Origin: Phenylobacterium sp. Root700
GTDB lineage: Bacteria; Pseudomonadota; Alphaproteobacteria; Caulobacterales; Caulobacteraceae
Assembly: GCF_001429025.1 (NCBI RefSeq)
Contig: NZ_LMHT01000001.1
Location: 1 to 64,000, forward strand
DNA: 64,000 nt
Reading direction: 5' to 3'
Below, in pieces: positions 3,731-64,000 of this stretch. The position numbers were made by a program, and so were the translations under genes. The notes beneath the pieces are model-generated. The model was not told the DNA's origin, ran no database searches, and saw only the letters and a list, made by a program, of their open reading frames with translations. Positions within the stretch are counted from its first letter, which is position 1. Each line of letters begins with the position of its first letter.

Positions 3731-3731
3731 G

Positions 3732-4883: not shown

Positions 4884-4956
4884 CTCGGCCAATCTCCTGT
4901 CTCGCAGGAAAACAAACAGGCGGTCGTCAGGAGAACCAAAGACCGCGTTTCATATC

Positions 4957-45951: not shown

Positions 45952-46059
45952 GTCGGATCCCCAATCGAACGCGTCTCGCGCCCCGGGAACCTCTCTGACC
46001 GCCGCCGCCTGACGTTTGGGCGCCGATCTCCGTCAGCGGCGTGTCAGGATGAGCGTGGA

Positions 46060-48392: not shown

Positions 48393-49817
48393 TCAGCGCG
48401 TCTCCGGCGCGTAGTAGGCGCCGCCGGCTCGATATCGCTCGAGCCGCTTCAGCTCCTTCGGATCGATCTTGGAGCGCCAGGTCGAGACGCCGTTGACGAG
48501 ATCGGCCGGCGTCAAGCTCAGCGGCGCCCAGACCGGCGCGCCGGTGACGTCGTAGAGATTGTAGGTCAGGCGGGGCGAGCCGGTCAGGTCGAACTCCAGC
48601 AGGCCAAAGTTCGAACCTTTGGCGAAGACCGGCCGCATCCGGGCCTCTGGGACCTGATCTGGCCACTTGTCGTTCGGCGTTTGGGCCAGCGGCGAGGCGA
48701 CCAGATCGTAGATGTCGTAGCCGCCCTGCTCGGCGCGCGGGATGCAGTTGAGTTCGCCCACATGGGTGTCGCCCGACAGACAGACGACGCCGCTGATCTG
48801 CTCGTCGCGGATGAAGTCGAAGATCTCGTCCCGTTCATGGAGATAGGCGGCGAAGGAGTCGCCCGGCCGCTCGGCCAGGGACCAACCCGTGCCGCTGATC
48901 AGGATCTTGAACGGCGCGCGGCTGGCCTTGAGCGCCGCCTTCAGCCAGCGTTTCTGACCGGCGCCCAGCATGGTCTTTTCGGGGCCATCGAGCTTGTCGC
49001 CAGGGTCGCGGTGGTAGCGCCCGTCGAGATGGAAGAAGTCCACCCCGCCAAAGCTGCTCTGAAAGAAGACGCCGGGGGTGTCGGCGGTCCCGTAGAACGG
49101 ATTGGCCCAGTGGCGTTTGAACAGCGCCAGGCTGGCCTCCTTCACGGGGCTGCGAGCGTCGGAGTCGTTGTAGCCGAAGTCGTGATCGTCCCAGATCGCC
49201 AGGCTGGGCGTCGAGCGCAGCAGGGGCGCCAGCCGCTCCACGCCGCGCTGACGCCGATAGGTGTCGGCGATCGCTTCGGGCTGGTCGCTGTCGGCGTAGA
49301 TGTTGTCGCCCAGCCAGAGGAAGAGGTCGGGCTCAAGCGCCTGAACCGCGGCGAAGATCTTCTGCTCGCTGTCGTACTGGAACCGCGCGCAGGACCCGAA
49401 AGCGACCCTGAACTTGGCGGGCCCGGCGGGCGCCGTCCGCACCTTGAACGGCACAGGCGCGTAGCGATCCAGCACCCCGTCGATGCGATAGCGGGCATAG
49501 TAGGTCGTGGCGGGCTTCAAGCCCTCCAGGCGTATGACGGTGGTCAGGTCGTTGGCCGCGTCGGCCCGGACCGGGGCGCTGAGCTTTGCATCTGCAAACG
49601 CGCGATCGGACGCGTACTCGACTTGAACCATCGCCGCCGCGCTGGAGCGCGACCAGATCGAGATGTGGCTGGGGCCGGTGTGACCGATCATCGGCCCCTG
49701 CATCAGGCGCGGATAGCCCAGCACTCCGGCGAGACTGGCGCGGGCCGATCCCAGCACGGCGCCCAGGGCCGTGGCGGCCAGAAGCCCCCGGCGAGCAAGT
49801 CGAACTGGCAGGGTCAT
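48393..49817 (-). CDS. PhoD-like metallophosphatase (secreted)
   Basis: A 474-residue protein of the PhoD alkaline phosphatase/phosphodiesterase family. The N-terminus LARRGLLAATALGAVLG looks like a Tat signal, then a fibronectin-like PhoD N-domain to about residue 120, and a catalytic part with AFGSCARFQYDSE, WLGDNIYAD, WDDHDFGYND and LSGDTHVGEL. PhoD enzymes cleave phosphodiesters and monoesters with iron and calcium. It is the last gene of the MFS-IMPase-PhoD operon; its ATG overlaps the IMPase stop (ATGA). In this context inositol-containing esters are plausible substrates. Confidence 0.9.
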   Translation of the reverse strand: MTLPVRLARRGLLAATALGAVLGSARASLAGVLGYPRLMQGPMIGHTGPSHISIWSRSSAAAMVQVEYASDRAFADAKLSAPVRADAANDLTTVIRLEGLKPATTYYARYRIDGVLDRYAPVPFKVRTAPAGPAKFRVAFGSCARFQYDSEQKIFAAVQALEPDLFLWLGDNIYADSDQPEAIADTYRRQRGVERLAPLLRSTPSLAIWDDHDFGYNDSDARSPVKEASLALFKRHWANPFYGTADTPGVFFQSSFGGVDFFHLDGRYHRDPGDKLDGPEKTMLGAGQKRWLKAALKASRAPFKILISGTGWSLAERPGDSFAAYLHERDEIFDFIRDEQISGVVCLSGDTHVGELNCIPRAEQGGYDIYDLVASPLAQTPNDKWPDQVPEARMRPVFAKGSNFGLLEFDLTGSPRLTYNLYDVTGAPVWAPLSLTPADLVNGVSTWRSKIDPKELKRLERYRAGGAYYAPETR

Positions 49818-50647
49818 GGCGCGGGACTGGGCCAGGCGGTCGGGCCGGAGTTTTCCACGGGCGCGAGCGCTTTCAGCAGTTCGGCCTGAATCTGCGGCGT
49901 GCAGTTCAGGACCGTCCCCGCCATCAGGTCCAGAGGGCCGCCGCGCGTGTCGGTGACCACGCCGCCCGCCTCGCGCACCAGGATATCCCCGGCCGCCATG
50001 TCCCAGGCGCTGACCGACTGTTCCCAATAGGCGTCGAACCGGCCGCAGGCGACATAGGCGGTGTCGACCGCGCCCGCGCCCAACCGGCGCACCGAGGCGA
50101 TACGCGGGGTGAGGCGCGCCATCTCGGCCAGGAACTGGTCGTGGCGCGGCTTGCCCGCGAAGGGGATGCCCACCGAGATCACCGCTTCTTCCAGCGTGGC
50201 GCGCTGGGAGACTCTGATCGGCTGGCCGTTCAGCCACGCCCCCTGGCCGAGCTCGGCCCAGAACATCTCGTCCATCATCGGAATGTAGGTGACGCCGGCG
50301 ATCACCGTGCCGGCCTTGGCCAGCGCCACGTTCACCGCGAACAGCGGAATGCCGCAGACGAAGTTCATGGTCCCGTCGAGCGGATCGACGATCCAGACGT
50401 GGTCAGGATCCTCGCCCTCGGTGCGGCCGCCTTCCTCACCCAGGAACCCATAGGTCGGACGCGCCTTGGCCAGCAGGGTCCGGACGGTTTCCTCGGCCCG
50501 CTCGTCGGCGATCGAGACCGGGTCGCCGTGACCGCCCTTGATGCGGATCTCCAGGTTCGCAAGGTTCGCGAAGTCCAGCTTCAGTTGATCGCCCGCCACG
50601 CGCGCGGCGTCGATCATGGCCTGCAACAGCTCCGATGGCTTACTCAT
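49814..50647 (-). CDS. Inositol monophosphatase
   Basis: A 277-residue enzyme of the inositol monophosphatase family. It has the metal-binding GEEGG, WIVDPLDGTMNFV and SAWDMAAGDIL, matching SuhB/IMPase more closely than CysQ. It would release myo-inositol from inositol phosphate. The ATG at 50647 overlaps the MFS stop by one base (TGATG) and its own stop overlaps phoD. Close coupling to a transporter that shares an IolR-type operator with the iol operon fits a job in feeding inositol to catabolism. Confidence 0.92.
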   Translation of the reverse strand: MSKPSELLQAMIDAARVAGDQLKLDFANLANLEIRIKGGHGDPVSIADERAEETVRTLLAKARPTYGFLGEEGGRTEGEDPDHVWIVDPLDGTMNFVCGIPLFAVNVALAKAGTVIAGVTYIPMMDEMFWAELGQGAWLNGQPIRVSQRATLEEAVISVGIPFAGKPRHDQFLAEMARLTPRIASVRRLGAGAVDTAYVACGRFDAYWEQSVSAWDMAAGDILVREAGGVVTDTRGGPLDLMAGTVLNCTPQIQAELLKALAPVENSGPTAWPSPAP

Positions 50648-52002
50648 CAATCCCTCAACTTGGTGCGCCACAGGCTGGTGGCGAGCACCAGGGAGGCCAC
50701 GGAAGCCCCGATCCAGAACAGGATCGCGGGGCCAAAATCATAGTGCCGGACGCCGTCGATCATCACGGTGCCCTTCTCGATCAGAGCGCCGGAAACCTGC
50801 TCCTGGATGGCCGCGCCGAGGTAGCTGAACACCCCGATCATGCCGAGCGCCGCGCCCGCGACCCGCTTGGGGCAGATGTCCGTGGCGAAGAGGCCGCCCA
50901 GCGACGTCACCAGCCCGGTCATGCCCAATCCAAACAGGACCATGCCCAGCACCAGCACATAGTTGTTGGTCGGCCCGAAGAAGATCAGGCCGAGCCCGAC
51001 CAGTTCGAGCAGGCCAAACAGCAGGTTGGCCGGCGGCCGGCGCGCCGCGAAATACTTGTCCGAGATGTAGCCGAAGGCGATGGCGCCCGCGACGCCGGCC
51101 AGGGTGCTGACGAACAGCAGGCTGCCGGCGGCGGGCAACGAATAGCCACGCGCCTCCTGCAGATAGAGAACCCCCCAGCTGTTGATGGCGTAGCGCGTCA
51201 CGTAGGTGAGGGCGCTGGAGACGGCGAGGATCCAGACCGCCGGCATTTTCAGGAGCGAAAGCTGGGTGGCGAGGACGGGGCCCTCAGCCGAGGCCTGGAC
51301 CTGGGCCTTCTCGCCCTGCCAGTGGTCGTTGCGCCAGTCGGCCACCGCCGGAAGGCCAAGGGTCTGGGGACGATCCTGCATCCAGAAATAGCACCAGACA
51401 GCCGCGCCGATGCAGAGGGTCGCCGGCACGAAGAAGCCGAAGCGCCAACCCAAGGCGGCGACGATGGCGCCGATGACCAGGAAGTTCAGCCCCTCGCCGA
51501 TGGAGTGGGCCGTGCTCCAGACGCCGTAGAAGCGTCCACGTTCGCGATTGGAGAACCATTGAGCGAGCGCCACCACGCAGGCCGGCGCGCCGAAACTCTG
51601 GAACCAGCCGTTCAGGCCCCAGAACACCACCGCCATGGCGACGCTGGTCGACAGCCCCATGCCGATATTGCACAGCGCCGACAGAAACAGACCAAAGGCG
51701 AAGAAGCGTTTGACGTTGGCGTGGTCGGCCAGGAACCCGTTGGTCAGCTTGCCGAAGGCGTAGGTGTAGAACAGCGCCGAGCCGATCAAGCCGAGGTCGG
51801 CGGCGCTGAAAACGCCCTGGTCGATCAGCGGCTTCTTCACCACCCCCAGCGCCAGGCGGCAGGTGTAGGACAGGCCGTAGCCGAGCGTGATGGCCATCAT
51901 GATGCGGAAGCGATGGCGGGTGTAGAGCGTGTCGACATCGCTGGACACGGTTCGCGGCGCCGCGTCCGCGCCGACCGCGAATAGGGACAGTATGGCTTTC
52001 AT
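50647..52002 (-). CDS. MFS transporter, organophosphate:phosphate antiporter (UhpC/GlpT) type
   Basis: A 451-residue permease with 12 predicted membrane spans. TLGYGLSYTCRLALGVVKKPL, DQGVFSAADLGLIGSALFYTYAFGK (shortened) and the pattern GPACVVALAQWFSNRERGRFYG match the OPA family, whose members exchange sugar phosphates or glycerol phosphate for phosphate, or sense them. An exact GGAA-N6-TTCC site lies about 80 bases upstream, as in front of iolC. It is first in the operon with IMPase and PhoD. Likely substrates are inositol or inositol phosphate; sequence alone does not decide. Confidence 0.88.
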   Translation of the reverse strand: MKAILSLFAVGADAAPRTVSSDVDTLYTRHRFRIMMAITLGYGLSYTCRLALGVVKKPLIDQGVFSAADLGLIGSALFYTYAFGKLTNGFLADHANVKRFFAFGLFLSALCNIGMGLSTSVAMAVVFWGLNGWFQSFGAPACVVALAQWFSNRERGRFYGVWSTAHSIGEGLNFLVIGAIVAALGWRFGFFVPATLCIGAAVWCYFWMQDRPQTLGLPAVADWRNDHWQGEKAQVQASAEGPVLATQLSLLKMPAVWILAVSSALTYVTRYAINSWGVLYLQEARGYSLPAAGSLLFVSTLAGVAGAIAFGYISDKYFAARRPPANLLFGLLELVGLGLIFFGPTNNYVLVLGMVLFGLGMTGLVTSLGGLFATDICPKRVAGAALGMIGVFSYLGAAIQEQVSGALIEKGTVMIDGVRHYDFGPAILFWIGASVASLVLATSLWRTKLRD

Positions 52003-52081
52003 CGACTTCCCGCGCCCTCCAACCCCTAGGGCTCTAACGGCCCGCTTATCTTGATCAGTCTATTTCATTTTTTTGTGTCTT

Positions 52082-52095
52082 GGAAGTTTTCTTCC
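52082..52095. promoter_or_regulatory. IolR-type operator upstream of the transporter operon
   Basis: An exact GGAA-GTTTTC-TTCC, part of a 16-base palindrome TGGAAGTTTTCTTCCA. GGAA-N6-TTCC is the motif reported for the RpiR-type inositol repressor IolR of Sinorhizobium meliloti. The same motif precedes iolC at 59200-59213. It lies about 80 bases upstream of the MFS start on the minus strand, in unusually AT-rich sequence, where a promoter is expected. Confidence 0.7.
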
Positions 52096-52130
52096 ACATT
52101 TGGAATGAAATCTGCTCACCCGAAAAGAGC

Positions 52131-52156
52131 GCCCCTGCGCGACCTAGCGCAGGGGC
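52131..52156 (-). terminator. Terminator of the iol operon
   Basis: A perfect 10-base stem GCCCCTGCGC/GCGCAGGGGC with a 6-base loop, 30 bases past the iolA stop on the minus strand, followed in that direction by GCTCTTTTC. It separates the iol operon from the transporter operon transcribed in the same direction. Confidence 0.75.
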
Positions 52157-52185
52157 AGTCGGGGAAATTCGGAGAGCGGCGCGCC

Positions 52186-53682
52186 TCAGCGCATAGTCGG
52201 AATGACGAAGCTCTGCTCGACCTCGCCGCCTGACGGCCAGCGCTGGGTGACGATCTTCTGACGCGTGTAGAACCGGACGCCGTCTTCGCCATACTGGTTC
52301 AGGTCGCCGAAGCCCGAGCGCTTCCAGCCGCCGAAGGAGTGGTAGGCGACGGGCACCGGCAGCGGCACATTGATCCCCACCATGCCGACCTCGACCTGAT
52401 CGGCGAATTGCCGGGCCGCGTCGCCGTTGCGGGTGAAAATGGCCACGCCGTTTCCGTACTGATGGCGGGTCGCGAGCTGCAGCCCCTCGTCAAAGGTCTG
52501 GACACGGACGATCTGAAGCACCGGGCCAAAGATCTCGTCCTGATAGCTCTTCATGTTCGGAGTCACCCGGTCGAACAGGGTGGGGCCGACGAAGAAGCCG
52601 CCTTCCGCGCCCTGGAGCGTGAAGTCCCGACCATCGATGACCAGCTCGGCGCCTTCCTCGACGCCCATCTGGATGTAGGCCTCGATGCGGGCCTTATGGG
52701 CGGCGCTGACCACCGGGCCGTAGTCGGCGTCGGGATCGGTGGAGACGCCGACCCGCAACCCTTCGATCGCGGCCACCAGCTTGGCGCGTAGAGCATCAGC
52801 CGTCGCTTCGCCCACCGGCGCCACCACCGGCAGCGCCATGCAACGCTCCCCGGCCGAGCCGTAGGCCGCGCCGATGATGTCGGCCACCGCCCGGTCAAGA
52901 TCGGCGTCCGGCAGGACAACGCCATGGTTCTTGGCGCCCCCCATGGCCTGGCAGCGCTTTCCCGCCGCCGCCGCGCGGGCATAGACGGATTGGGCGATGT
53001 CGGAAGACCCGACGAAGCTGACGGCCTTGATGTCGGGGTGCTCGAGGATGGCGTCGACCGCGGCCTTGTCGCCCTGGACGACATTCAAGATACCCGGCGG
53101 CAGGCCGGCCTCGATCATCAGCTCCGCCAGGCGCAGCGGCACGGACGGGTCACGCTCCGAAGGCTTGAGGATGAAGGCGTTGCCGGTGGCGATGGCCGGG
53201 CCGAACATCCACATCGGGATCATGGCCGGGAAGTTGAACGGGGTGATCCCCGCCACCACGCCCAGCGGCTGGCGCATCGAATAGACGTCGATCCCAGGCC
53301 CCGCGCCCTGCGTGTAGTCGCCCTTCATCAGATGCGGAACGCCGCAGGCGAATTCGATCACCTCCAGGCCCCGCATGATGTCGCCGCGCGAGTCGGCGAT
53401 CACCTTGCCGTGCTCCGAGGAGAGCAGACTCGCCAGCTCGTCCATATGGACGTCCAGCAGCCGCTTGAACTCGAACATCACCCGCGCGCGGCGCTGGGGA
53501 TTGGTCGCCGCCCAGCCAGGCTGCGCGGCCTTGGCGCTGGCGACGGCGGCGGCCAGTTCGGCGGCGTTGGCCAGCGGCGCCTGCGCCTGCACCGCGCCGG
53601 TGTTGGGATCGAACACGTCGCTGAACCGGCCGGAGACGCCGTCTACGCGGCGACCGTCGATGAAGTGGGACAGGGTACGCAA
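52186..53682 (-). CDS. iolA: Methylmalonate-semialdehyde dehydrogenase (CoA-acylating)
   Basis: IolA (MmsA) converts malonic semialdehyde to acetyl-CoA, the last step of inositol breakdown. The 498-residue protein has the MmsA marks GITPFNFPAMIPMWMFGPA (shortened), LKPSERDPS and the active-site C281 in GERCMALPVV. The last gene of the operon, it starts four bases after the iolB stop with TTG at 53682 (AAAGG upstream). No good ATG exists near the conserved N-terminus RTLSHFIDGRRV. Confidence 0.95.
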   Translation of the reverse strand: MRTLSHFIDGRRVDGVSGRFSDVFDPNTGAVQAQAPLANAAELAAAVASAKAAQPGWAATNPQRRARVMFEFKRLLDVHMDELASLLSSEHGKVIADSRGDIMRGLEVIEFACGVPHLMKGDYTQGAGPGIDVYSMRQPLGVVAGITPFNFPAMIPMWMFGPAIATGNAFILKPSERDPSVPLRLAELMIEAGLPPGILNVVQGDKAAVDAILEHPDIKAVSFVGSSDIAQSVYARAAAAGKRCQAMGGAKNHGVVLPDADLDRAVADIIGAAYGSAGERCMALPVVAPVGEATADALRAKLVAAIEGLRVGVSTDPDADYGPVVSAAHKARIEAYIQMGVEEGAELVIDGRDFTLQGAEGGFFVGPTLFDRVTPNMKSYQDEIFGPVLQIVRVQTFDEGLQLATRHQYGNGVAIFTRNGDAARQFADQVEVGMVGINVPLPVPVAYHSFGGWKRSGFGDLNQYGEDGVRFYTRQKIVTQRWPSGGEVEQSFVIPTMR

Positions 53683-53685
53683 AAA

Positions 53686-54492
53686 TCAGACCTTTCGGGC
53701 GATCCAGTCATGGGCGGGGTCGTTGCGGAAGATCCACTCCCGCTTCGGACCAGCCATGACATTGAGGTAGTAGAGGTCGTAGCCATGAGGGGCGCCCACG
53801 GGATGGTAGCCGCGCGGCACCATCACCACGTCGCCGTCCTCGACGGCCATGGTCTCATCGAGGCTGCGATCGTCGGTGTAGACCCGCTGGAAGGCGAAGC
53901 CCTGCGGCGGGTTGAGGCGGTGATAGTAGGTCTCTTCAAGCGCCGTCTCTTCGCTCGCCGTGGCGGTGTCGTGCTTGTGCGGCGGGTAGCTGGACCAGTT
54001 GCCGCCCGGCGTGATCACCTCAACGACCAGCAGGCTCTGGGCCGGCTCGGTTTGCGGCAGGATGTTGCGGACATAGCGGGTGTTGGTCCCCTGCCCGCGC
54101 ACCTCGCGGCTCATCTTGGCAGGCTCGATCAACCGGGCCTGGCCGTCCGGCGAGGCCGGCGCGCTGCACACCGCCAATTCGACGGCGCCATGGGCGGTCA
54201 CCGTCCAGCTCGCCCCGCCCGGCGCATAGACCGCCGCCGGCGCGGCGTCCTCGAACACGCTGGTCCGACCGCCGATGCGGGTGAACCTCTGGGCGCCGAC
54301 GGCGACGTCGGCGGTCCCACTGAGGATCACCAGGCAGACCTCGCGCCCGGCTTCGCCGCCGCTCAGGACGACGTCGGGGCCAAGCTCATGGACCTTGAAG
54401 CCGACATGCGACCAGCCCGCGCTTTGCGGGGTGACGTCCAGCACGCAGCCGGTGGGATCGGGCGCGTGCGGGCGGACGAGCAGGCTGCCCAT
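53686..54492 (-). CDS. iolB: 5-deoxy-glucuronate isomerase
   Basis: IolB isomerises 5-deoxy-D-glucuronate to 2-deoxy-5-keto-D-gluconate. The 268-residue cupin-type protein has the family marks WSHVGFKVHEL, NWSSYPPHKHD (metal-binding histidines), LEETYYHRLNPPQGFAFQRV (shortened) and VMVPRGYHPVGAPHGYDLYYLN (shortened). It starts one base after the iolE stop, so translation is coupled. Confidence 0.96.
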   Translation of the reverse strand: MGSLLVRPHAPDPTGCVLDVTPQSAGWSHVGFKVHELGPDVVLSGGEAGREVCLVILSGTADVAVGAQRFTRIGGRTSVFEDAAPAAVYAPGGASWTVTAHGAVELAVCSAPASPDGQARLIEPAKMSREVRGQGTNTRYVRNILPQTEPAQSLLVVEVITPGGNWSSYPPHKHDTATASEETALEETYYHRLNPPQGFAFQRVYTDDRSLDETMAVEDGDVVMVPRGYHPVGAPHGYDLYYLNVMAGPKREWIFRNDPAHDWIARKV

Positions 54493-54493
54493 C

Positions 54494-55393
54494 TCAAGCC
54501 GCCTTCTTCAGGCCGGCGGAAGCGGCTGCCCGCTCCAATGTACGCAGGCCCAGCTCGCCATATTTGCGGGGATCGGCAACCGCCGGATCCTGCTCGGCCT
54601 CGATGATGATCCAGCCGGAATAGCCGACCGAGGCCAGGGCCTGCATGACCTTGCCGTAGTCCAGGTCGCCGTCGCCGGGCACGGTGAACATGCCGGCCAG
54701 GACGCCGTCCAGGAACGAGCGGCCATCGGCCCGCACCTCCTGGAACACTTCGCCCCGGACGTCCTTGCAATGGACATGGGCGATCCGTCGCGGATGGGTG
54801 CGGATGACCTCGACGGGATCGATGCCGCCCAGCGCCGCGTGTCCGGTGTCCAGGGTCAGGCCGACGTTCATGCTCGTTCGCCGCAGGAATTCCTTCAGGT
54901 CGGCGGGCCGCTCCACCACCGTGCCCAGGTGGTGGTGATAGGCGAACTTCAGGCCCTGGCCCGTCACATAGTCGGCGAGGTCGGAGAGCCGACGCGCGAA
55001 CGTCTTCCACTGGCCCTCGTCAAGCTGGGGCGTGGCGGTCAGCGGCTTGGTCCGGTCGCCGTGGATGGCGTTGCTGGTCTCGGCATGGACGAAGACCGTG
55101 CTGCCCATGGCTTTAAGCAGCGCCAGGTGATCCTTGGCGGCGACGATCTCGGCGTCGACGCTGTGGGTCAACAGATTGCCGCTGAACCAGCCGCCGACGA
55201 TGTCGAGGCCGTAACTGGCCATCAGCGGTTTCAGGATCGCTGGATCGCGCGGGAACTTGCCGCCCAGCTCCACGCCGGAGAAGCCGATATCTCGGGCGTC
55301 GGCCAGGATGGTTTCCAGCGGCGTATCGCCGCCCAGTTCGGGCATGTCGTCATTGACCCAGGCGATGGGACTCACGCCGAAGCGGATGGTCAT
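54494..55393 (-). CDS. iolE: myo-Inosose-2 dehydratase
   Basis: IolE dehydrates 2-keto-myo-inositol to the trihydroxycyclohexane-dione intermediate. The 299-residue xylose isomerase-like TIM barrel starts MTIRFGVSPIAWVNDDMPELG (shortened), has FAYHHHLGTVVE, LTLDTGHAALGGIDPV and HCKDVRGEVF, all typical. It follows iolD by a few bases on the same strand. Confidence 0.96.
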   Translation of the reverse strand: MTIRFGVSPIAWVNDDMPELGGDTPLETILADARDIGFSGVELGGKFPRDPAILKPLMASYGLDIVGGWFSGNLLTHSVDAEIVAAKDHLALLKAMGSTVFVHAETSNAIHGDRTKPLTATPQLDEGQWKTFARRLSDLADYVTGQGLKFAYHHHLGTVVERPADLKEFLRRTSMNVGLTLDTGHAALGGIDPVEVIRTHPRRIAHVHCKDVRGEVFQEVRADGRSFLDGVLAGMFTVPGDGDLDYGKVMQALASVGYSGWIIIEAEQDPAVADPRKYGELGLRTLERAAASAGLKKAA

Positions 55394-55396
55394 GGG

Positions 55397-57235
55397 TCAG
55401 TCTCCCGTGCGTTGATCTTGAATCTTGGTTTCGTAGGTCTCGCGGGCGGCCCGCACCGCGGGCCGAACCGACACCTGCGGCACCGCGACATCCCACCAGG
55501 CGCCGCCGGCCTCGGTGACGATGGCCGGGTCGGTGTCGACCACCACCACATAGGTCCGGTCGCTGGCGCGAGCCCGAACCAGGGCGGCCTCGAGATCGGT
55601 GACGCCGACGACCTTTTCCGCGCGCGCGCCAAGACTGGCGGCGTGAGCGGCGAAGTCGATGCCTGGCAGCACCTGATGGAAGCTGTCGGCCAACAGGTTG
55701 TTGAACGGCGCGCCGCCGGTGGCCTGCTGCAGCCGGTTGATGCAGCCGAAACCTCGATTGTCGAGGACGACGATGGTCAGCTTGACCCCCATCATCACCG
55801 AGGTGGCGATCTCGGAGTTCATCATCATGTACGAGCCGTCGCCGACCATGACGAAGACCTCGCGGTCCGGCGCGGCCATCTTGGCCCCCAGCCCGCCGGC
55901 GATCTCGTAGCCCATGCAGGAAAAGCCGTATTCCACGTGGTAGCCACCGGGCCGGCGCGTGCGCCACAGCTTGTGAAGCTCGCCAGGCAGGCCGCCCGCC
56001 GCGCACACCACCACCGCATCCTCGCCCGCCGATCGCCAGACCGCGCCCACGACCTGGGCGTCGGACGGCAGGTCAGTGTCGGTGGCGGCGGTCGCCGCCT
56101 CCCAGGCCTGGTTCCAGGCCTGCATGTTCTGGGCGCGGTCTGCGTTCGGCGCTTTCCAGTCGCCGAGCAGCCCGCGAAGGTCTTCCAGCACCGCGCGAGC
56201 GTCGCCGACCACCGGCAGAGCGCCGTGCTTGTGCGCGTCGAAAGCGCCGACATTGATCTGCACGAGCCGGCGCGCGGGATTGGCGAACAGCGCCCGCGAC
56301 CCCGTCGTGAAATCCTGCAACCGCGTGCCGACCCCGATCACCAGATCGGCGGCCTCGGCGGCAGCGTTGGCGGCGGCCGAGCCGGTGACCCCGACCGAGC
56401 CCAAGGCGGAGGGATGATCCCAGACCAGCGAGCCCTTGCCGCCCTGCGTCTCGGCCACCGGCAACCCGGTAGCTTCGGCCAACTGAGCCAGGACCGTCTC
56501 GGCGCCGCTGTAGAGCACGCCGCCGCCGGCCACGATCAGCGGCGCCCGGGCCGCCGTCAGCAATTGGGCGAGACCGGCCAACTCGCGTGGATCGGCGGGC
56601 TGGCGGCGTTGGCGCCAGACGCGGCGCGCAAAGAAGCTTTCCGGGAAATCAAAGGCCTCGGCCTGGACGTCCTGGCAGAAGGCCAGCGTCACCGGACCGC
56701 AATCGGCCGGATCGGTGAGGACCGCCATGGCGCGCGGCAGGGCGGCCAGCAGCTGTTCAGGGCGGGTGATGCGGTCGAAGTAGCGCGACACCGGGCGGAA
56801 GCAGTCATTGGCGCTGATCGTGCCATCGCTGAAGCTCTCGACCTGTTGCAGCACCGGGTCAGGCCGGCGGCTGGCGTAAACGTCGCCTGGCAGGAACAAC
56901 ACCGGCAGACGGTTCACATGGGCGAGCGCCGCGGCCGTGACCATGTTGGTGGCCCCTGGGCCGATGGAGGTGGTGCAGATCATGGCCCGAGCGCGCCGCA
57001 TCTGCTTGGCGTAGGCGATCGCGGCGTGCGCCATGCCCTGTTCGTTGTGCGCCCGCCAGGTCGGCAGTTGGTCGCGGGCGCCATGCAGCGCCTCGCCAAG
57101 ACCCGCCACATTGCCGTGGCCGAAGATCGCCCAGACGCCGGCGAAGAACGGGACCTCCTGACCGTCCAGCTCCACGAACTGGCCGGCCAAGTATCGAACC
57201 GCCGCCTGGGCCCCTGTCAGTCGCACATTACTCAC
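55397..57235 (-). CDS. iolD: 3D-trihydroxycyclohexane-1,2-dione hydrolase
   Basis: IolD opens the ring of the dione intermediate to 5-deoxy-glucuronate. It is a thiamine diphosphate enzyme of 612 residues, with the N-terminal ALHGARDQLPTWRAHNEQGMA (shortened), TTSIGPGATNMVTAAA, and the cofactor motif VGDGSYMMMNSE. The start is GTG 57235, overlapping the iolC stop (GTGA), which couples the two genes. Confidence 0.96.
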   Translation of the reverse strand: MSNVRLTGAQAAVRYLAGQFVELDGQEVPFFAGVWAIFGHGNVAGLGEALHGARDQLPTWRAHNEQGMAHAAIAYAKQMRRARAMICTTSIGPGATNMVTAAALAHVNRLPVLFLPGDVYASRRPDPVLQQVESFSDGTISANDCFRPVSRYFDRITRPEQLLAALPRAMAVLTDPADCGPVTLAFCQDVQAEAFDFPESFFARRVWRQRRQPADPRELAGLAQLLTAARAPLIVAGGGVLYSGAETVLAQLAEATGLPVAETQGGKGSLVWDHPSALGSVGVTGSAAANAAAEAADLVIGVGTRLQDFTTGSRALFANPARRLVQINVGAFDAHKHGALPVVGDARAVLEDLRGLLGDWKAPNADRAQNMQAWNQAWEAATAATDTDLPSDAQVVGAVWRSAGEDAVVVCAAGGLPGELHKLWRTRRPGGYHVEYGFSCMGYEIAGGLGAKMAAPDREVFVMVGDGSYMMMNSEIATSVMMGVKLTIVVLDNRGFGCINRLQQATGGAPFNNLLADSFHQVLPGIDFAAHAASLGARAEKVVGVTDLEAALVRARASDRTYVVVVDTDPAIVTEAGGAWWDVAVPQVSVRPAVRAARETYETKIQDQRTGD

Positions 57236-59154
57236 GCCACCAGCTCCACCTTGCCCCGCGCCTTACGCCAGGCGAGGACCAGGAAGGTCAGTCGCTCGGC
57301 CAGGGTCCGCACCGCGGTTTCGTCGTCGATTTCTCCGGCCAACCAGGCGCGCGCCGGCTCCTGGAAGATGGTCCGGCCCACCGCAAAGCCCTTCACGGCC
57401 CGGACCTTGGCGGTGGCGTCGAACGCCGCCAGCAAGGTTTCGGTGGGCTGCGAAAGACCGAGCAGCACCACGCCCCGGCAGAGCGGATCGCAACGGGCGA
57501 TGACCGCCTCGATATTGCGCCAGGCGCCGGCGTCGTCCATCGGCTCAAGCTTCCACCAGTCGGGACGAACGCCCAGGGCGTAGAGCCGCTCCAGCACCGT
57601 GGCGATGGTCGAGGCGTCGACCGCCATGCCAGCTGGCACGATGATCTCCACCAACAGTTCGTGGCGTGTCTTGCGGCAGGCGTCGAACAGCCGGAGCAGC
57701 TGGCGCTCCTGGCGCTCGCGCAACTCCACCGGATCGTCAGGGTGGTAGAAGACCAGCACCTTGACCACGTGGTTCAGGGGCCACTCGGCGAGTTCGGTGG
57801 CTACGTCGGCGGAGCTTTCGAATTCCAGCGGCCGCGACTTCGGCAGTTCGATCGGTCGACCGATCCAATAGCGATGGTCGGCGGCCTGGGCCAAGGCGTC
57901 GAAGCCGAAGCGGCCGTCCAGCAGGATGCCGAACCGCTCGTCGCCCTTGGCCACCTGATGCATGGCTTGCAGAGCCAAGGTCTTGAAGGCCGAGATGCGG
58001 GCCGGATCGGCGCCCAGCTCCTGGGCCAGATCCTCGAACTGACTGCGGTGGTCGATGGCCAGCACCGTCAGCTCGTCATAGGTCCCGGTGCGGGTGGTCG
58101 CCCAATGCAGGTGCTCCAACTCGGCGTCTTCACGCAGCCGGAACGGGCGATCGCGGTCCGCCAGGAAGCTTTCCATCTCCGTCCAGGTCGGCATCGCCGG
58201 CGCGCAGCCGTGGCGCGAGACCACGATGGCTCCAGCCGCATTGGCCAGTTCGCAGCATCGTTCCAGCGGCAGGTCGCGCAGCCAGCCGCGCAGGAAGCCG
58301 CTCATGAAGGCGTCGCCCGCCCCCAGCACGTTGAACACCTCGACCGCGAAGCCCGGCCCCACGATCCCGTCGGCGAGATCATCGGCGATGGCGCCGGGGA
58401 AGGCCGAGCAGCCGTCAGGCCCGCGCTTGCAGACCAGCAGGGCGTTCGTGCTTTGGCGGATCGTCCGCAGCGCGGCGATGGTGTCGGTCGTGCCGCCGAG
58501 GATATGAATCTCTTCCTCGGTGCCGACGATCAGGTCGCAGAGCGGCAGGACCTGCTGCAAGATCCGGGTCACCGCCTCGTGGGCGACGAAACGGTTCTCG
58601 CCGAGGTCGCGGGCGGTCAAGCCCCAGAGCACCGGGCGGTAGTCGATATCGAACACCACCTTGCCGCCGCCGGCCTTGGCCAGGCGCGCCGCCTTCATCG
58701 AGGCGGCCAGCACGGAAGGTTGCGACAGATGCGTGCCGTTGATCAGCACCGCGCCGGATCTGGCGACAAGCGCCTCGTCGACGTCGGCCTCGCACAGCGC
58801 CATGTCGGCGCAGTCCTCGCGATAGAAGATCAGCGGGAAATTTTCACGGTCGCGAATGCCCAGGATGACCAGGGCCGTCAGCCGTTGTTCGTCGGTCAGC
58901 ACGCCGGCGACATCGACGCCTTCACGCACCAGCTGCTCGCGAATGAAGCGGCCCATGTGATCGGCCCCGACCCGCGTCAGCACCGCTGTCTTCAGGCCTA
59001 GCCGGGCCCCGCCCACGGCGGTGTTGGTCGGACTGCCTCCGACATACTTGGCGAAGGACGCCATGTCCTCCAGCCGGCCGCCTATCTGCTGACCATAGAG
59101 ATCGACGCTCGACCGACCAATGGCCAGGAGATCGAGGGATTTGTCCTGCGCCAT
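57232..59154 (-). CDS. iolC: IolC-DUF2090 fusion: 5-dehydro-2-deoxygluconokinase with aldolase-like domain
   Basis: A 640-residue protein in two parts. Residues 1-330 are a PfkB-type kinase, IolC, starting DLLAIGRSSVDLYGQQIGG (shortened) and with the catalytic GAGDAFMSGFLRG. Residues from about 340 to the end are a DUF2090 domain (AIDHRSQFEDLAQELG, ILLDGRFG, KLEPMDDAGAW), which resembles class I aldolases and is thought to split the phosphorylated product, replacing IolJ. The ATG at 59154 has GGGAGGA upstream. It is the first gene of the iol operon, behind an exact GGAA-N6-TTCC site. Confidence 0.93.
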   Translation of the reverse strand: MAQDKSLDLLAIGRSSVDLYGQQIGGRLEDMASFAKYVGGSPTNTAVGGARLGLKTAVLTRVGADHMGRFIREQLVREGVDVAGVLTDEQRLTALVILGIRDRENFPLIFYREDCADMALCEADVDEALVARSGAVLINGTHLSQPSVLAASMKAARLAKAGGGKVVFDIDYRPVLWGLTARDLGENRFVAHEAVTRILQQVLPLCDLIVGTEEEIHILGGTTDTIAALRTIRQSTNALLVCKRGPDGCSAFPGAIADDLADGIVGPGFAVEVFNVLGAGDAFMSGFLRGWLRDLPLERCCELANAAGAIVVSRHGCAPAMPTWTEMESFLADRDRPFRLREDAELEHLHWATTRTGTYDELTVLAIDHRSQFEDLAQELGADPARISAFKTLALQAMHQVAKGDERFGILLDGRFGFDALAQAADHRYWIGRPIELPKSRPLEFESSADVATELAEWPLNHVVKVLVFYHPDDPVELRERQERQLLRLFDACRKTRHELLVEIIVPAGMAVDASTIATVLERLYALGVRPDWWKLEPMDDAGAWRNIEAVIARCDPLCRGVVLLGLSQPTETLLAAFDATAKVRAVKGFAVGRTIFQEPARAWLAGEIDDETAVRTLAERLTFLVLAWRKARGKVELVA

Positions 59155-59199
59155 GGTCCTCCCACTATCACTGAGACGCCACACTCCGCGGCGCGATGT

Positions 59200-59219
59200 G
59201 GAATGAGTATTCCATTATA
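59200..59219 (-). promoter_or_regulatory. iol operon promoter -10 with abutting IolR-type operator
   Basis: On the minus strand a perfect -10 TATAAT (59219-59214) is directly followed by GGAATACTCATTCC (59213-59200), an exact GGAA-N6-TTCC. A repressor bound there would cover the transcription start. The best -35 candidate is TTGAAA with a long 19-base spacer. The divergent or neighbouring RpiR-type gene encodes the expected regulator. Confidence 0.72.
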
Positions 59220-59263
59220 ATTTTCGATGCAATGTTCATTTCAATTTTGGAACGTGCGGTGCG

Positions 59264-60139
59264 TCAGTCCTTTCGGCGGCGGCTTCTCGCCTCCTCCTTG
59301 CGCGAGGCCTCGAAGGCGAATCCGATCACCAGCGCCTGGGCGAGACAGATCGAGGCCGACAACGAACGGAACGCGCGGATCTCCGACTCGCGGACCTGCA
59401 AGGTGACGTCGGCGGGCTGGGCGATCGGGCTGACGAGGCTGTCGCTCAGCGACAACACCTTGGCGCCGCGGCTCACAGCCGTCTCCACTGCGTGCACGGT
59501 TTCGTCCGCATAGGGGTGGTAGCTCACCGCGACCATCAGATCCTTCGGCCCGATGGTTTGCACCTGCTGGCGCGCTAGGCCCGCGACGCCATCGACGAAC
59601 ACGGTCCGCTTGCCCGCCTGTTGCAGCGAATAGGCCAGGTAGGACGACACCGGGAACGCCCGACGGAAGCCGACGACATAGACGGACTCCGCCGCCTCGA
59701 TCAGCCTCACCGCCGCGGTGAGATCGGCGTCCGCCACGGTCTGGCTAAGGCTTTGCAGGGCCAGGGTGTTGCCCTCCACGAACTCGGAAAGCAGCTCCCC
59801 CGCCCCGCCGCCGGTACGCTTGTCCACGGCGCGGGTGAAGTTGCGAACCCGCTCGCCGTAGCCCAGCACCGCATGGCCCGAGAGCAGCCCGTCGCGGAAC
59901 AGCCGCTGCATCTGAGTGGCCCCGTCGAAGCCGAAGCTCTTGGCGAACCGCACGATGGCCGAGGGCTGAACCCCGCTGCGCTCGGCGATCACCGCCAGGG
60001 TTTCCAGCGCCAACTCGTTGGGCTCGTCCAGCACATAGCGGGCGATCTGCTGCAGCCGTTTGCTCAAGCTGTCATAGCGCTCAAGAATCGCCGCGCGGAG
60101 ATCCTCGGCCGTGGTCGGCGCGATAGGCGTGTCGGTCAT
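59264..60139 (-). CDS. iolR: RpiR-family regulator, probable IolR
   Basis: A 291-residue regulator with an N-terminal RpiR helix-turn-helix (YDSLSKRLQQIARYVLDEP shortened, then ERSGVQPSAIVRFAKSFGF) and a C-terminal SIS sugar-phosphate domain (SVYVVGFRRAFPVSSYLAYSL shortened). In alphaproteobacteria this type represses inositol genes and is relieved by a phosphorylated intermediate. ATG 60139 has GGATCA upstream; the long open frame to 60334 runs through the operator region. It sits between iolC and the divergent iolG pair. Confidence 0.9.
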   Translation of the reverse strand: MTDTPIAPTTAEDLRAAILERYDSLSKRLQQIARYVLDEPNELALETLAVIAERSGVQPSAIVRFAKSFGFDGATQMQRLFRDGLLSGHAVLGYGERVRNFTRAVDKRTGGGAGELLSEFVEGNTLALQSLSQTVADADLTAAVRLIEAAESVYVVGFRRAFPVSSYLAYSLQQAGKRTVFVDGVAGLARQQVQTIGPKDLMVAVSYHPYADETVHAVETAVSRGAKVLSLSDSLVSPIAQPADVTLQVRESEIRAFRSLSASICLAQALVIGFAFEASRKEEARSRRRKD

Positions 60140-60166
60140 CAACAGTGATCCAAATGTTCCCGTAGT

Positions 60167-60252
60167 AGAATATGCGTTCCGCACTGGAACACAAACCCTG
60201 AGGCCGATCCGTTGGAATGTTCCATTTTTCTTGTGATCGAAATGTTTGTTCC
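60167..60252. promoter_or_regulatory. Cluster of GGAA/TTCC sites between iolR and the iolG pair
   Basis: The 139-base divergent region holds several related sites: AGAA-N6-TTCC (60167-60180), GAAA-N6-TTCC (60239-60252), both one base off the GGAA-N6-TTCC consensus, an inverted pair GTTCC-N5-GGAAC (60176-60190) and the palindrome GGAATGTTCC (60214-60223). The RpiR-type regulator probably binds here to control itself and the dehydrogenases. Confidence 0.55.
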
Positions 60253-60278: not shown

Positions 60279-61265
60279 ATGGTCAAGATCGCGCAGATCG
60301 GCGCCGGGCGGATGGGCTCGGTCCACGCTCGCAACGCCGCGGGTAACGCCCGCCTGGAGCTTGCCTATCTGGTCGATCCCCAGCCGGAAGCTGCGCAGGC
60401 CCTGGCCGCCGAGACCGGGGCCAAGGTCGTCAGTCTCGATCAGGTTCTGAACGACCCCGCCGTGCGCGGGGTCATCGTCGCCAGCTCCACCGCCGCCCAC
60501 CTGGACAACACCCTGGCCTGCCTCGCCGCCGGCAAGGCGGTGTTTTGCGAGAAACCTCTGGATCTCGACCTGGCCAGCCTGCGCGCGGCCGAGGCCGAGC
60601 TCGCGAAATCTGAAGCGTCGCTGTTCGTCGCGTTCAACCGCCGCTTCGATCCCCACTTCCGCGCCTTGAAGGCCAGGATCGAGTCGGGCGTTATCGGTGA
60701 GCTGGAGGCCCTGCAGATCGTCAACCACGACCCCGCGGCCCCGCCGGCCCACTTCATTCCGACCAGTGGCGGCCTGTTCAAGGACTTCACCATCCACGAC
60801 TTCGACATGGCTCGCTGGCTGTCGCCGGAGGAGCCCGTGGAGATCTTCGCCTGGGCCAGTTGCCTGGTGGACCAGGCCATCGCCGAAGCCGGCGACACCG
60901 ACACCGCGCGGGTGATGTTGCGGGATCAGGCCGGCCGGCTGACCACGATCTGCAACACGCGGCGCAGCGGCTGCGGCTATGATCAGCGTATCGAGGCTTT
61001 CGGCTCGCGCGGCATGGCGACCGCCAGCGACCTGAGCCCCGACACCGTGCAGGTCTGGACGCAGGCCGGCCAGGCCGCCGCCGCGCTGCATCCGAACTTC
61101 ATGAGCCGCTACGCCCAGGCTTATCGCAACGAGATGAACCATTTCGCCGACATTCTCGCCGGCCTGGCGGTTCCAGAAACAGGTTACGAGGCCAGCGTTC
61201 GCTCGCTGGCGCTGGCTGAAGCCGCGGCCCTGTCGGTGAAGACCGGCGGGCCGGTGCGGCTCTAG
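60279..61265 (+). CDS. iolG: Inositol 2-dehydrogenase family protein 1
   Basis: A 328-residue Gfo/Idh/MocA oxidoreductase. It starts MVKIAQIGAGRMGSVHARNAA (shortened) with the NAD fold glycines, has the lysine motif FCEKPLDLDL and the catalytic GGLFKDFTIHDFDMARWL (shortened), the DxxxH-type site of inositol dehydrogenases. ATG 60279 has GGGAG upstream. It lies 24 bases before a close paralogue. One probably oxidises myo-inositol and the other a related isomer such as scyllo- or D-chiro-inositol; which is which cannot be told. Confidence 0.9.
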   Translation: MVKIAQIGAGRMGSVHARNAAGNARLELAYLVDPQPEAAQALAAETGAKVVSLDQVLNDPAVRGVIVASSTAAHLDNTLACLAAGKAVFCEKPLDLDLASLRAAEAELAKSEASLFVAFNRRFDPHFRALKARIESGVIGELEALQIVNHDPAAPPAHFIPTSGGLFKDFTIHDFDMARWLSPEEPVEIFAWASCLVDQAIAEAGDTDTARVMLRDQAGRLTTICNTRRSGCGYDQRIEAFGSRGMATASDLSPDTVQVWTQAGQAAAALHPNFMSRYAQAYRNEMNHFADILAGLAVPETGYEASVRSLALAEAAALSVKTGGPVRL

Positions 61266-61289: not shown

Positions 61290-62267
61290 ATGTTCAAGAT
61301 CGCGCTGCTCGGCGCCGGACGGATCGGGCGCATTCACGCCGCCAACGCCGCCGCGCACCCCGCCCTCACGCTCAGCCATGTGGTCGATCCGGTCGCCGAG
61401 GCCGCCCAGGCCCTGGCCCAGGAAACCGGCGCGACGGTCGCGACGCTGGACGCGGTGCTGGCCGATCCCTCGGTGGCCGGGGTCATCGTCGCCAGCTCCA
61501 CCGACACCCATCTCGACTACTGCCTGAAAGCCCATGCCGCGGGTAAGGCGATCTTCTGTGAAAAGCCGATCGACCAGGATTTGGCGCGCGCCCGCAGCGC
61601 CGCCGGCGCCCTGGCCGGCGCCCGGCTGTTCCTCGGTTTCAACCGCCGCTTCGATCCGAACTTCCAGGCGCTGAAAGCCCGGCTCGACGCCGGCTCGGTG
61701 GGCGCGCTGGAAACCTTGCAGATCACCAGCCACGACCCGGCCCCGCCCCCCGTCAGCTACATCAAGGTCAGCGGCGGCCTCTTCAAGGACATGGCGATCC
61801 ACGACTTCGACATGGCCCGTTGGCTGCTGGCTGAGGAACCGTCGGAGGTGTTCGCCTGGGGCAGTTGCCTGGTCGATCCGGCGATCGGGCAAGCCGGCGA
61901 TATCGACACCGCGCGCACCATCCTGAAGACCCCCTCCGGCCGGCTCTGCGTGATCAGCAACAGCCGGCGTTCGGGCTACGGATATGACCAGCGCATCGAG
62001 GCGTTCGGCTCGGCCGGCATGGCGCGGGCCGGCAACGTCACCGAAAGCACCGTTCAGGTCTGGACCGAAAGCGGCGCGGCAGCCGACCGATTCCAGAACT
62101 TCTTCCTGGACCGCTACAGCGACGCCTATCGGCAGGAGATGGCCCACTTCGCCGACGTTCTGGCCGGGGCGACCGCCTCGGTCGGTTACGCCGACGGCGT
62201 CGCCGCGCTCGCCCTGGCCGAGGCCGCCGCGCAATCGGTCAACACCGGCAAGCCCGTCCGCCTCTGA
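61290..62267 (+). CDS. iolG: Inositol 2-dehydrogenase family protein 2
   Basis: A 325-residue paralogue of the preceding gene with the same layout: IALLGAGRIGRIHAANAAAHP (shortened), EKPIDQDL, GGLFKDMAIHDFDMARWLL (shortened) and SRRSGYGYDQRIEAFGSAG (shortened). The two share long identical stretches and probably arose by tandem duplication. AGGAGAG lies seven bases before the ATG. A strong bidirectional terminator follows the stop. It is likely cotranscribed with the first copy under the same operators. Confidence 0.92.
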   Translation: MFKIALLGAGRIGRIHAANAAAHPALTLSHVVDPVAEAAQALAQETGATVATLDAVLADPSVAGVIVASSTDTHLDYCLKAHAAGKAIFCEKPIDQDLARARSAAGALAGARLFLGFNRRFDPNFQALKARLDAGSVGALETLQITSHDPAPPPVSYIKVSGGLFKDMAIHDFDMARWLLAEEPSEVFAWGSCLVDPAIGQAGDIDTARTILKTPSGRLCVISNSRRSGYGYDQRIEAFGSAGMARAGNVTESTVQVWTESGAAADRFQNFFLDRYSDAYRQEMAHFADVLAGATASVGYADGVAALALAEAAAQSVNTGKPVRL

Positions 62268-62341: not shown

Positions 62342-63580
62342 CTAAGGCGCGGGATGATCGAGCTTGGCCTGGACGATCTGCTGGAACCTGGCCAATGGGC
62401 AGGCCTGCGCGGCGTCGCTCGTGCAGCCGGTGATCGGGATATAGACGAAGGCGGGCGGCGCTTCGACGGTCAGCGGCGTCAGGTTGCGAAGCTGGTCCAT
62501 GGTCTGGGCCTGATAGAAGGCCCGCACGAACTTCGTCCCCGACGCGTCGCTGAGCAGTTCGAAGCCAAGCGCGCCGCCGGGGGGCGGATCGTCGGTCGGA
62601 TAGTCGCCCACGGTCCAGTGGAGATCCAGAAGCCCGCCCAGGGCCGCGATGTTGGTGTCGTGCCCGACCAGCACGGTCAGCTTGCCCGTGCCCGGCCCGC
62701 CCTCCAGGGCGCTCAGCACCCGCCGGGCGACCGGGGCGGCGTAACGCTCGGCGACATAGGGCGTGCGCGTCTCGTAGAAGAACTTGGTGGTGTGGAAGTT
62801 CAGCAGCGACCCGATGTCGGCCTTGGACGCCCGCCCCCAGCCGACCTGGTCCATCGGCTTACCTTCAAGGTACTCCAGCAACACCGTCTGGCCCGCAGTC
62901 GAGGCGATCCCCAGCGCGCCGCTCAGATCGGCGTTGTCGCCCGGGTGGGCGGTGATCTCGGTCGGCTGATCCAGCAGGTTGCAGGCCGCGCCGCCGCATC
63001 CAAGAACCCGCGCGAGGACCGCGAAATCCTTGGCGTGGGCCTGCTGGACCGCCTTCAGCCCGCCGGCCGGGAGCTGGGCTTCCGTCGCGCTCTTGGCGCG
63101 GTCGCCGTCAATGCCGCCAGCCCCGGCGTCGGACGGATGGAAGACGGTGTCGTCCTTCTCCGTCGCGGGATAGGCGACCGGTACGTCGCACCCGGGGAAC
63201 ATGCCGGCGGCGAAGTTCTTCGCCGTATCGATGGCGCGCGACTTGCCGCTGGCCACCACCGAGACCTCGCCGGCCGCCGGGCATCCGCTCGCCGCGACCA
63301 GGCCGCGCCCCGCGTACAGGCCACGATCATATTTCCCCATCAGCCGCGCGCCCTCGGCGCCGTGCGGCGTCAGTTCGCCGAAGGGCGTGGTCCAGGCTGA
63401 CCAGGGCTGGGCGCTCATGCCGGGCGGGGTGACATCGGCCTTGGTCGGCGGACGCACGCCATGGCGCATCAGCATCACCACCCGCTCGAGCTTGAGAGGC
63501 TGTTCCGCCGCGCCGGGCGTCGCGCCGCCCGCCAGGGCGAGCGCCGCTAGGGCCGGGGCCAGGATCTTCAGGGTCTTCAT
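62342..63580 (-). CDS. Histidine acid phosphatase, AppA phytase/glucose-1-phosphatase type
   Basis: A 412-residue periplasmic enzyme with a signal peptide ending near TPGAAEQ. It has the phosphohistidine motif R39-H40-G-V-R43-P-P, then TPHGAEGARLMG, and the proton donor H307-D308 in GHDTN, with the Cys-rich mid-section typical of branch-2 acid phosphatases. The closest pattern is AppA/Agp, whose members remove phosphate from phytate or glucose-1-phosphate. AGGAGCG precedes the ATG. Next to an inositol locus, phytate is the natural guess, but the substrate is not proven. Confidence 0.9.
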   Translation of the reverse strand: MKTLKILAPALAALALAGGATPGAAEQPLKLERVVMLMRHGVRPPTKADVTPPGMSAQPWSAWTTPFGELTPHGAEGARLMGKYDRGLYAGRGLVAASGCPAAGEVSVVASGKSRAIDTAKNFAAGMFPGCDVPVAYPATEKDDTVFHPSDAGAGGIDGDRAKSATEAQLPAGGLKAVQQAHAKDFAVLARVLGCGGAACNLLDQPTEITAHPGDNADLSGALGIASTAGQTVLLEYLEGKPMDQVGWGRASKADIGSLLNFHTTKFFYETRTPYVAERYAAPVARRVLSALEGGPGTGKLTVLVGHDTNIAALGGLLDLHWTVGDYPTDDPPPGGALGFELLSDASGTKFVRAFYQAQTMDQLRNLTPLTVEAPPAFVYIPITGCTSDAAQACPLARFQQIVQAKLDHPAP

Positions 63581-63683: not shown

Positions 63684-64000
63684 CTAGTAGGTGTAGGACA
63701 GACCGAAGCGGTAGGAGCGTCCGTAGCGTTCGGCCTCCACCATCCGGCTGCGCGTGCGCGCGTAACGATAGTCCAGCTCGTCGTTGAGGTTGTTGCCCTC
63801 GACGAAGACCTGGAACTGCTTGGTGACGTTGTAGGCCGCCCGGGCGCTCAGGCTGCCCTGCTTGCCCCAATAGATGTCGTCGTTCTCCGTCGTCCCGACC
63901 AGTTCGAGATATTTGGAGTGGTAGGTGTAGGCCACGCGCCCCGAGAAGCCGAACTTCTCGTAGTAGATCTGCGCGCTGGCGACCCGCTTTGACTGCAGGA
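63684..64000 (-). CDS. TonB-dependent receptor 4, C-terminal part (cut by window edge)
   Basis: The last 105 residues of an outer membrane receptor; the open frame continues past position 64000. The strands YEKFGFSGRVAYTYHSKYLE (shortened), the block VEGNNLNDELDYRYA and the end YRFGLSYTY are typical of TonB receptor barrels. It lies upstream of the histidine acid phosphatase on the same strand, about 100 bases apart, so it may import the substrate or product of that enzyme. Confidence 0.88.
   Translation of the reverse strand, partial: LQSKRVASAQIYYEKFGFSGRVAYTYHSKYLELVGTTENDDIYWGKQGSLSARAAYNVTKQFQVFVEGNNLNDELDYRYARTRSRMVEAERYGRSYRFGLSYTY

Follow-up and report, generated by a model that had tools for sequence, protein, structure and literature searches.

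It seems rather probable that the palindrome TGGAAGTTTTCTTCCA at 52081-52096 of the DNA studied here is a working IolR-type operator, and that it brings a transporter and two phosphatases into an IolR regulon for the use of phytate or inositol phosphates as carbon. The window, meaning the whole stretch analysed, is the first 64,000 nucleotides of contig NZ_LMHT01000001.1 of Phenylobacterium sp. Root700 (family Caulobacteraceae), and in it the operator precedes genes for a major facilitator superfamily (MFS) transporter, an inositol monophosphatase family protein (IMPase) and a PhoD-like phosphatase, which follow the iol genes of myo-inositol catabolism. The sites, their conservation and placement, the gene order, the protein families and the invariant phosphate-binding residues of the transporter are seen directly. 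Judged from sequence, regulation of the MFS operon by the IolR-type site is very likely, inclusion of a phytase branch in the IolR regulon is likely, and an inositol phosphate as the MFS substrate is somewhat less so, if still favoured; these three gradings are judgements.

Separating operators from chance palindromes

The exact palindrome GGAA-N6-TTCC occurs in the window at 52082-52095 and 59200-59213 and nowhere else; both copies are intergenic, and the earlier note, which had put one ahead of the MFS operon and the other on the iolC promoter, located both correctly. With 0.67 copies expected, and two or more reached in 12 of 100 shuffles, the count of two in the window is in itself weak evidence. 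One-mismatch sites stand at chance level (19 against 18.9 expected), and so the pair that the earlier note reported between iolR and iolG, AGAATATGCGTTCC at 60167-60180 and GAAATGTTTGTTCC at 60239-60252, is indeed present but is no evidence on its own. The iolR-iolG gap of family relatives holds exact sites in 9 of 12 cases.

Across the genome (4.58 Mb in 35 contigs) there are 66 exact sites against 43 for a reversed-pattern control, and most exact matches are therefore chance. When the first 15 of the 66 were placed on genes, 13 fell inside open reading frames (ORFs) of at least 139 amino acids, the exceptions being the two window sites, of which that at iolC is overlapped by only a 105-amino-acid ORF on the opposite strand. 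The extended palindrome TGGAA-N6-TTCCA has five genomic copies and its reversed control none; since the other three lie within ORFs of 398-434 amino acids, one of them a peptidase gene by family, the two window sites are the genome's only extended palindromes outside long ORFs. Two more exact sites, at 64289 and 69004 on the contig, were considered as further operators and dropped, lying as they do inside a TonB receptor gene and inside what we take from its sequence to be ppc, on the far side of a beta-propeller phytase gene. Chance matching to a short palindrome would account for the window count and for the number of one-mismatch sites, but it is contradicted by a position and spacing kept across Alpha- and Gammaproteobacteria far above shuffles, and as an explanation of the operators it is extremely improbable.

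A probable operator and predicted promoter ahead of the transporter gene

A strong intrinsic terminator on the minus strand at 52130-52157, with an 11-bp stem and a T-rich tail, ends the iolA transcript, and so the MFS operon needs a promoter of its own. The operator at 52081-52096 lies between this terminator and the MFS gene, and 19 bp past its TTCC there is a predicted −10 box, TAGACT (52057-52062, minus strand), at a spacing that is conserved. A plain scan for sigma-70 promoters detected none at the MFS site, and the assignment of the −10 box rests on that conservation.

Within the family a site with at most one mismatch is present in all eight loci where the gap between iolA and MFS is about 100 bp or more and in none of the six where MFS is close behind iolA or iolB, and the four MFS loci without iol genes have no site within about 400 bp. 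A wider set comprised 80 named MFS loci, including those of Sphingopyxis, Luteimonas, Pseudoxanthomonas, Rhodanobacter, Steroidobacter and others. The exact site was found in 12 of 77 upstream regions of 200 bp each, with 0.0066 expected per region; these regions come from 77 of the 80 named loci, leaving out L129 and L174 (MFS at a contig end) and L172, together with the window and less L125, a near copy of L124. These last two are near-identical though titled Phenylobacterium and Rhodanobacter, and one of the metagenome-assembled genomes (MAGs) is probably misnamed or misbinned. Among 40 loci with MFS directly behind iolA or iolB (39 named loci and the window), a site with at most one mismatch occurs in 14 of 15 gaps of at least 95 bp, a threshold chosen, like the −130 to −75 position range used below, after the sites had been seen, and in 2 of 25 shorter gaps (Fisher p 7e-8, a value that overstates independence because the loci are related and some genomes are shared with the family set). 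Mononucleotide shuffles of the long gaps gave a mean of 0.33 of 15 with a site, and none of 500 shuffles reached 14.

In the long-gap class all 14 sites show the same arrangement of right arm, N19 and then TANNNT, so that the right operator arm overlies the −35 region, consistent with repression through exclusion of the polymerase. This spacing is kept in 18 of the 26 sites in the position range; the remaining eight belong to promoters with another layout, for the most part of Steroidobacter type and common to MFS and a divergent phytase gene. A short gap can be read as read-through from iol and a long one as the mark of a separate promoter with its operator, and for the window the terminator is seen. 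The earlier note's link of the MFS-IMPase-PhoD genes to IolR-type control is thus supported by a footprint that crosses classes, by the terminator, which leaves the operon dependent on a separate promoter, and by overlap of the operon genes, with MFS stop and IMPase start sharing base 50647 and IMPase stop and PhoD start sharing an ATGA at 49814-49817.

Linkage to inositol and phytase genes

Of 249 family genomes 18 have the MFS gene, 39 have iolC and 14 have both (Fisher p 1e-9). In all 14 of the latter (13 relatives and the window) MFS lies within the iol cluster, and in 13 of them a phytase gene lies within about 16 kb of it; the four MFS genomes without iol have no PF02333 match whatsoever. 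Among the neighbours of the 80 named MFS genes, many of them on short contigs, are at least two of iolB-E in 48 cases, an IMPase in 47 and a phytase or acid phosphatase in 33, and iolR is adjacent in most complete clusters.

In L141, L153, L156, L163, L164, L170 and L176-L178, loci of MAGs with labels such as Acidobacteria, Ignavibacteria and KSB1, the MFS relatives adjoin varying sets of dehydrogenases, TonB receptors and phytase-like genes, with no iolBCDE set seen in the locus DNA, hinting at another inositol route.

Paired sites at phytase promoters

Beyond the end of the window, between a TonB receptor gene and a double-domain beta-propeller phytase gene (contig 66438-68474; PF02333 at 445.8 bits in two stretches, over cut-off), the divergent receptor-phytase region contains a pair of degenerate sites, ACGAACAAAAATTCTA and TAGAATATTTCTTGCA, with a spacing of 30 bp, at contig positions 66327-66342 and 66357-66372. 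The best site pair is at spacing 30 in all 13 phytase regions of family genomes with iol-linked MFS, as the sole best in 12 and, in L194, equal with spacing 25; G247, the remaining genome with MFS and iol, has no phytase match. Summed over the family, mismatches number 55 at spacing 30 against 85-115 at other spacings (18 to 43) and 123 in shuffles. In other lineages 27 loci have a phytase match, and 20 of them were used (the seven with only 29-32% identity, L107, L135, L164, L170 and L176-L178, being left out); here the sum is 89 at spacing 30, 134-169 at others and 183 in shuffles, and spacing 30 alone scores best for 13 of the 20 regions. The pair is absent from all 12 control phytase promoters (mismatch sums 8-10 against 3-6), of which seven belong to single-domain phytases encoded outside the locus (six in genomes with MFS and one in G194, which has iolC and not MFS) and five to double-domain phytases of MFS-less genomes (four without iolC, and G077 with it).

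Several loci of the Steroidobacter type have phytase and MFS in divergent orientation on either side of a single promoter that bears such a pair. The variant TGGAA-N6-TTGCA has ten copies in the 1.81 Mb of DNA compared, some loci being included twice; tandem-site phytase promoters account for six of these, and one more, in L143, lies shortly before another phytase gene.

In six of the seven loci of genus g22, probably Caulobacter (L191 and L193-L197, not L188), the stretch from the tandem operators to the phytase gene contains a Pho-box-like repeat, GTCA-N7-GTCA, which suggests that phosphate and inositol may jointly control those phytase promoters; L186 and L187 have a Pho-box-like repeat on the other strand. 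These repeats, and the presence of PhoD-like and acid phosphatase genes, would also suit an operon for phosphate acquisition under PhoB, in which organophosphates are imported or cut for their phosphorus and the inositol link is incidental. In the Root700 genome, searched with simple patterns, the promoter regions of MFS, iolC, iolG and phytase have no such direct repeat, and what is conserved there instead are IolR-type sites in a gene order tied to iol, so that an operon of this kind is improbable.

An OPA-type transporter and its predicted substrate

The MFS protein (gene at 50647-52002, minus strand) is, by sequence, an organophosphate antiporter (OPA)-type protein of the GlpT/UhpT/PgtP-like group, an affiliation that the earlier note overlooked, as it did the probable place of the neighbouring phytase, receptor and histidine acid phosphatase genes in the regulon. 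Its closest solved sequence is GlpT (E 7e-54), and a structure model (pLDDT 90.6), used for fold comparison only, finds GlpT on top and then the human glucose-6-phosphate exchangers. Residues R49, K85, H166 and R270, which align with R45, K80, H165 and R269 of GlpT, are invariant in 30 sequences from several phyla; we take the GlpT residues to be phosphate-binding, with the positions read from the alignment. All 30 aligned members match the UhpC, PgtP and GlpT models. The protein thus shares fold, sequence and phosphate-binding residues with the OPA exchangers (GlpT, UhpT, PgtP, SLC37), but unlike GlpT, UhpT and PgtP it is linked to iol and phytase genes and falls under every curated NCBIfam OPA cut-off listed (GlpT 235/632, UhpT 161/497, PgtP 159/750 bits). 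Inositol monophosphate appears the most economical substrate, because a cytoplasmic IMPase adjoins the MFS and the phytases are outside.

The same operon could instead be controlled by IolR while its transporter imports free myo-inositol in place of an ABC transporter, IMPase and PhoD being accessory phosphatases. The Root700 genome has no match to PF02653, which we take to be the family of the known inositol ABC transporter permease (PF13407 matches are present, and a C. vibrioides control gave PF02653 matches); many genomes have MFS close behind iolA or iolB, sometimes without an adjoining IMPase; and some of the Acidobacteria-labelled MAG loci show only dehydrogenases beside MFS in the locus DNA. 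The invariant OPA residues, the translational overlap of IMPase with MFS and the phytase linkage argue for a phosphorylated substrate instead, and 36 PF00083 segments in the genome offer alternative carriers of free inositol; import of free inositol is a minority possibility, though the strongest of the alternatives.

For import of inositol monophosphate the following scheme may be proposed. We infer from sequence that IolR binds the sites, that inositol induces the operon, that the transporter carries inositol phosphate and that flux runs towards catabolism. Without inositol, IolR would sit on the −35 region and block the MFS-IMPase-PhoD promoter; during inositol breakdown it would be released and the operon made, the inducer possibly being the intermediate DKGP, after the model for S. 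meliloti cited in PMC8877191. The same repressor would control iolC and iolR/iolG, and through the weaker tandem sites 30 bp apart a receptor-phosphatase operon and the beta-propeller phytase. Phytate, or some other inositol phosphate ester, would then be degraded outside the cytoplasm by the phytases and PhoD until inositol monophosphate is left; the GlpT-like MFS would bring this in, probably in exchange for phosphate, and the cytoplasmic IMPase would release myo-inositol for breakdown by the iol enzymes.

Weighing the proposed regulon

Several observations weigh against this scheme. The long-gap locus L169 has no MFS site; 9 of the 80 named MFS loci, many contigs being short, have no inositol- or phosphatase-related neighbour; and a nearby IMPase is missing beside MFS in some lineages. 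The Root700 genome has five IMPase-family genes in all, four of them besides that of the operon. Five Sphingopyxis phytase promoters are without a clean 30-bp pair, their best spacing being 34, L138 lacks a pair and in L120 spacing 30 is tied, and G077, with iol genes and a phytase on one contig, has no tandem pair. Replacement of the ABC transporter by MFS was sought by co-occurrence and set aside, PF02653 being found in 6 of 14 genomes with both MFS and iolC against 17 of 25 with iolC and not MFS; at p 0.18 such a substitution is therefore suggested only.

The iolC site is a further point of this kind. Its extended palindrome, TGGAATGAGTATTCCA at 59199-59214, lies over the predicted iolC transcription start, 45 bp before the likely ATG, and the TATAAT that the earlier note described as touching it is the −10 box of iolC on the minus strand (59219-59214), abutting the site; an upstream partner, TGAAATGAACATTGCA, lies 29 bp from the exact site. 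Exact sites at this promoter recur only in two family relatives (L035, L036) and one Rhodanobacter locus (L126), and the site is thus poorly conserved. In C. crescentus, according to PMC2597717, motifs 1 and 2 lie 104 and 45 bp upstream of iolC; the window site is placed like motif 2, whose mutation was without effect in rich medium.

Finally, the tandem sites of Root700 are degenerate, with mismatches at 5 of 20 positions, and could be targets of a different RpiR protein. That an RpiR paralogue and not IolR binds the sites generally is unlikely, in that the palindrome is the same as the Caulobacter IolR motif, that it recurs in the iolR-iolG gap of most relatives and that iolR is a neighbour in most complete clusters.

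Relation to other IolR and phytase systems

The earlier note had taken the motif as that of the RpiR-type IolR of Sinorhizobium, and it does occur in Sinorhizobium promoters; the origin needs correcting, for in the available text of Boutte 2008 (PMC2597717) IolR and GGAA-N6-TTCC were defined in Caulobacter crescentus and the motif was then found in Sinorhizobium. The likeness to the C. crescentus regulon is close as far as that text goes, with an RpiR-type IolR beside idhA and iolCDEBA and the palindrome in promoters, and the order iolG-iolR-iolCDEBA is that of CC1296-CC1302. As in an RpiR-type IolR regulon, a regulator with RpiR helix-turn-helix and SIS domains stands here beside iolC and the palindrome lies in predicted target promoters. 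The systems differ in uptake, which in C. crescentus is assigned to the ABC transporter ibpA-iatA-iatP whereas the PF02653 permease family is missing here. An OPA transporter, IMPase and phytase are not named in the text available of PMC2597717, in which the words phosphatase and phytate are absent and phytase occurs in a reference title only; an HlyB-type transporter, and not an OPA protein, was proposed there as a possible inositol phosphate carrier. In S. meliloti (Kohler 2011, as cited in the available part of PMC8877191) IolR is likewise an RpiR-like repressor of iol, with DKGP as the proposed releasing signal and sites upstream of iolY, iolR and iolC; a phytase or inositol-phosphate uptake branch goes unmentioned in that part. 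The word monophosphatase is absent from the available text of the survey PMC9430895. Among the literature matches listed, in a search that most subscription journals lay outside, none could be recognised as an account of inositol-phosphate import by a bacterium or of an IolR-controlled phytase.

The enzymes and the neighbouring TonB receptor resemble beta-propeller and AppA-type phytase systems, but unlike such systems elsewhere the promoters here carry inositol-regulator-type sites, and the Pho-box-like repeat of the Caulobacter-genus relatives is missing.

Gene organisation of the locus

Leftward from iolR (59264-60139, minus strand; PF01418 and PF01380 over cut-off) the order is iolC, iolD, iolE, iolB, iolA, MFS, IMPase and PhoD, all on the minus strand. 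The iolC gene (57232-59154) encodes a kinase-aldolase fusion and likely starts at ATG 59154, after GGGAGGACC, rather than at GTG 59184; it is followed by iolD (55397-57235), iolE (54494-55393), iolB (53686-54492) and iolA (52186-53682), the last for methylmalonate/malonate-semialdehyde dehydrogenase. On the plus strand beyond iolR are two iolG-like dehydrogenase genes, the first iolG/idhA-like (60279-61265 and 61290-62267).

The operon IMPase (49814-50647) has DPLDGT and WD-AAG motifs, no signal peptide seen by eye and a PF00459 score of 226.6 bits (cut-off 27), and it misses the NCBIfam inositol-1-monophosphatase equivalog (185 against a cut-off of 332). The PhoD-like phosphatase/phosphodiesterase (48393-49817) has a Tat-like leader by eye. 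On the far side of the iolG genes, also on the minus strand, are an AppA-like histidine acid phosphatase/phytase gene (62342-63580; RHGVRPPTK and HDTN motifs, a signal peptide by eye, PF00328 over cut-off, the curated NCBIfam AppA equivalog missed at 249 against 585 bits) and the 3' part of the TonB-dependent receptor gene (63684-64000), which runs on to contig position 66254.

Beside PhoD, 43930-48392 encodes a TonB receptor, what looks by eye like a small PepSY-like protein, and a response regulator paired with a PhoQ-like kinase; in relatives, too, receptor and kinase matches turn up close to MFS-IMPase-PhoD. The window has a second gene of the inositol-monophosphatase family at 11700-12446, and a nucleotidyltransferase fused to a HEPN domain is encoded at 7567-8478 beside AAA_13 and SbcC/SbcD-like genes (665-7269).

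Implications

That a sugar-pathway repressor has several operators is known; what is new is the proposed extension to phytate and to inositol-phosphate uptake. More tentatively, and with the balance a little against it, this could be a widespread carbon-controlled regulon in which phytase, receptor, a so far unassigned OPA subfamily (then a first dedicated bacterial inositol-phosphate importer), IMPase and iol are all switched by IolR, with two IolR dimers 30 bp, or three helical turns, apart on the phytase promoter. The OPA subfamily of Proteobacteria and of MAGs labelled Acidobacteria, Ignavibacteria and others acquires in inositol phosphate a substrate that can be tested. Phytases of bacteria are commonly treated as enzymes for scavenging phosphorus; the sites predict that the phytases of many such bacteria would answer to inositol, within a pathway that eats the carbon ring.

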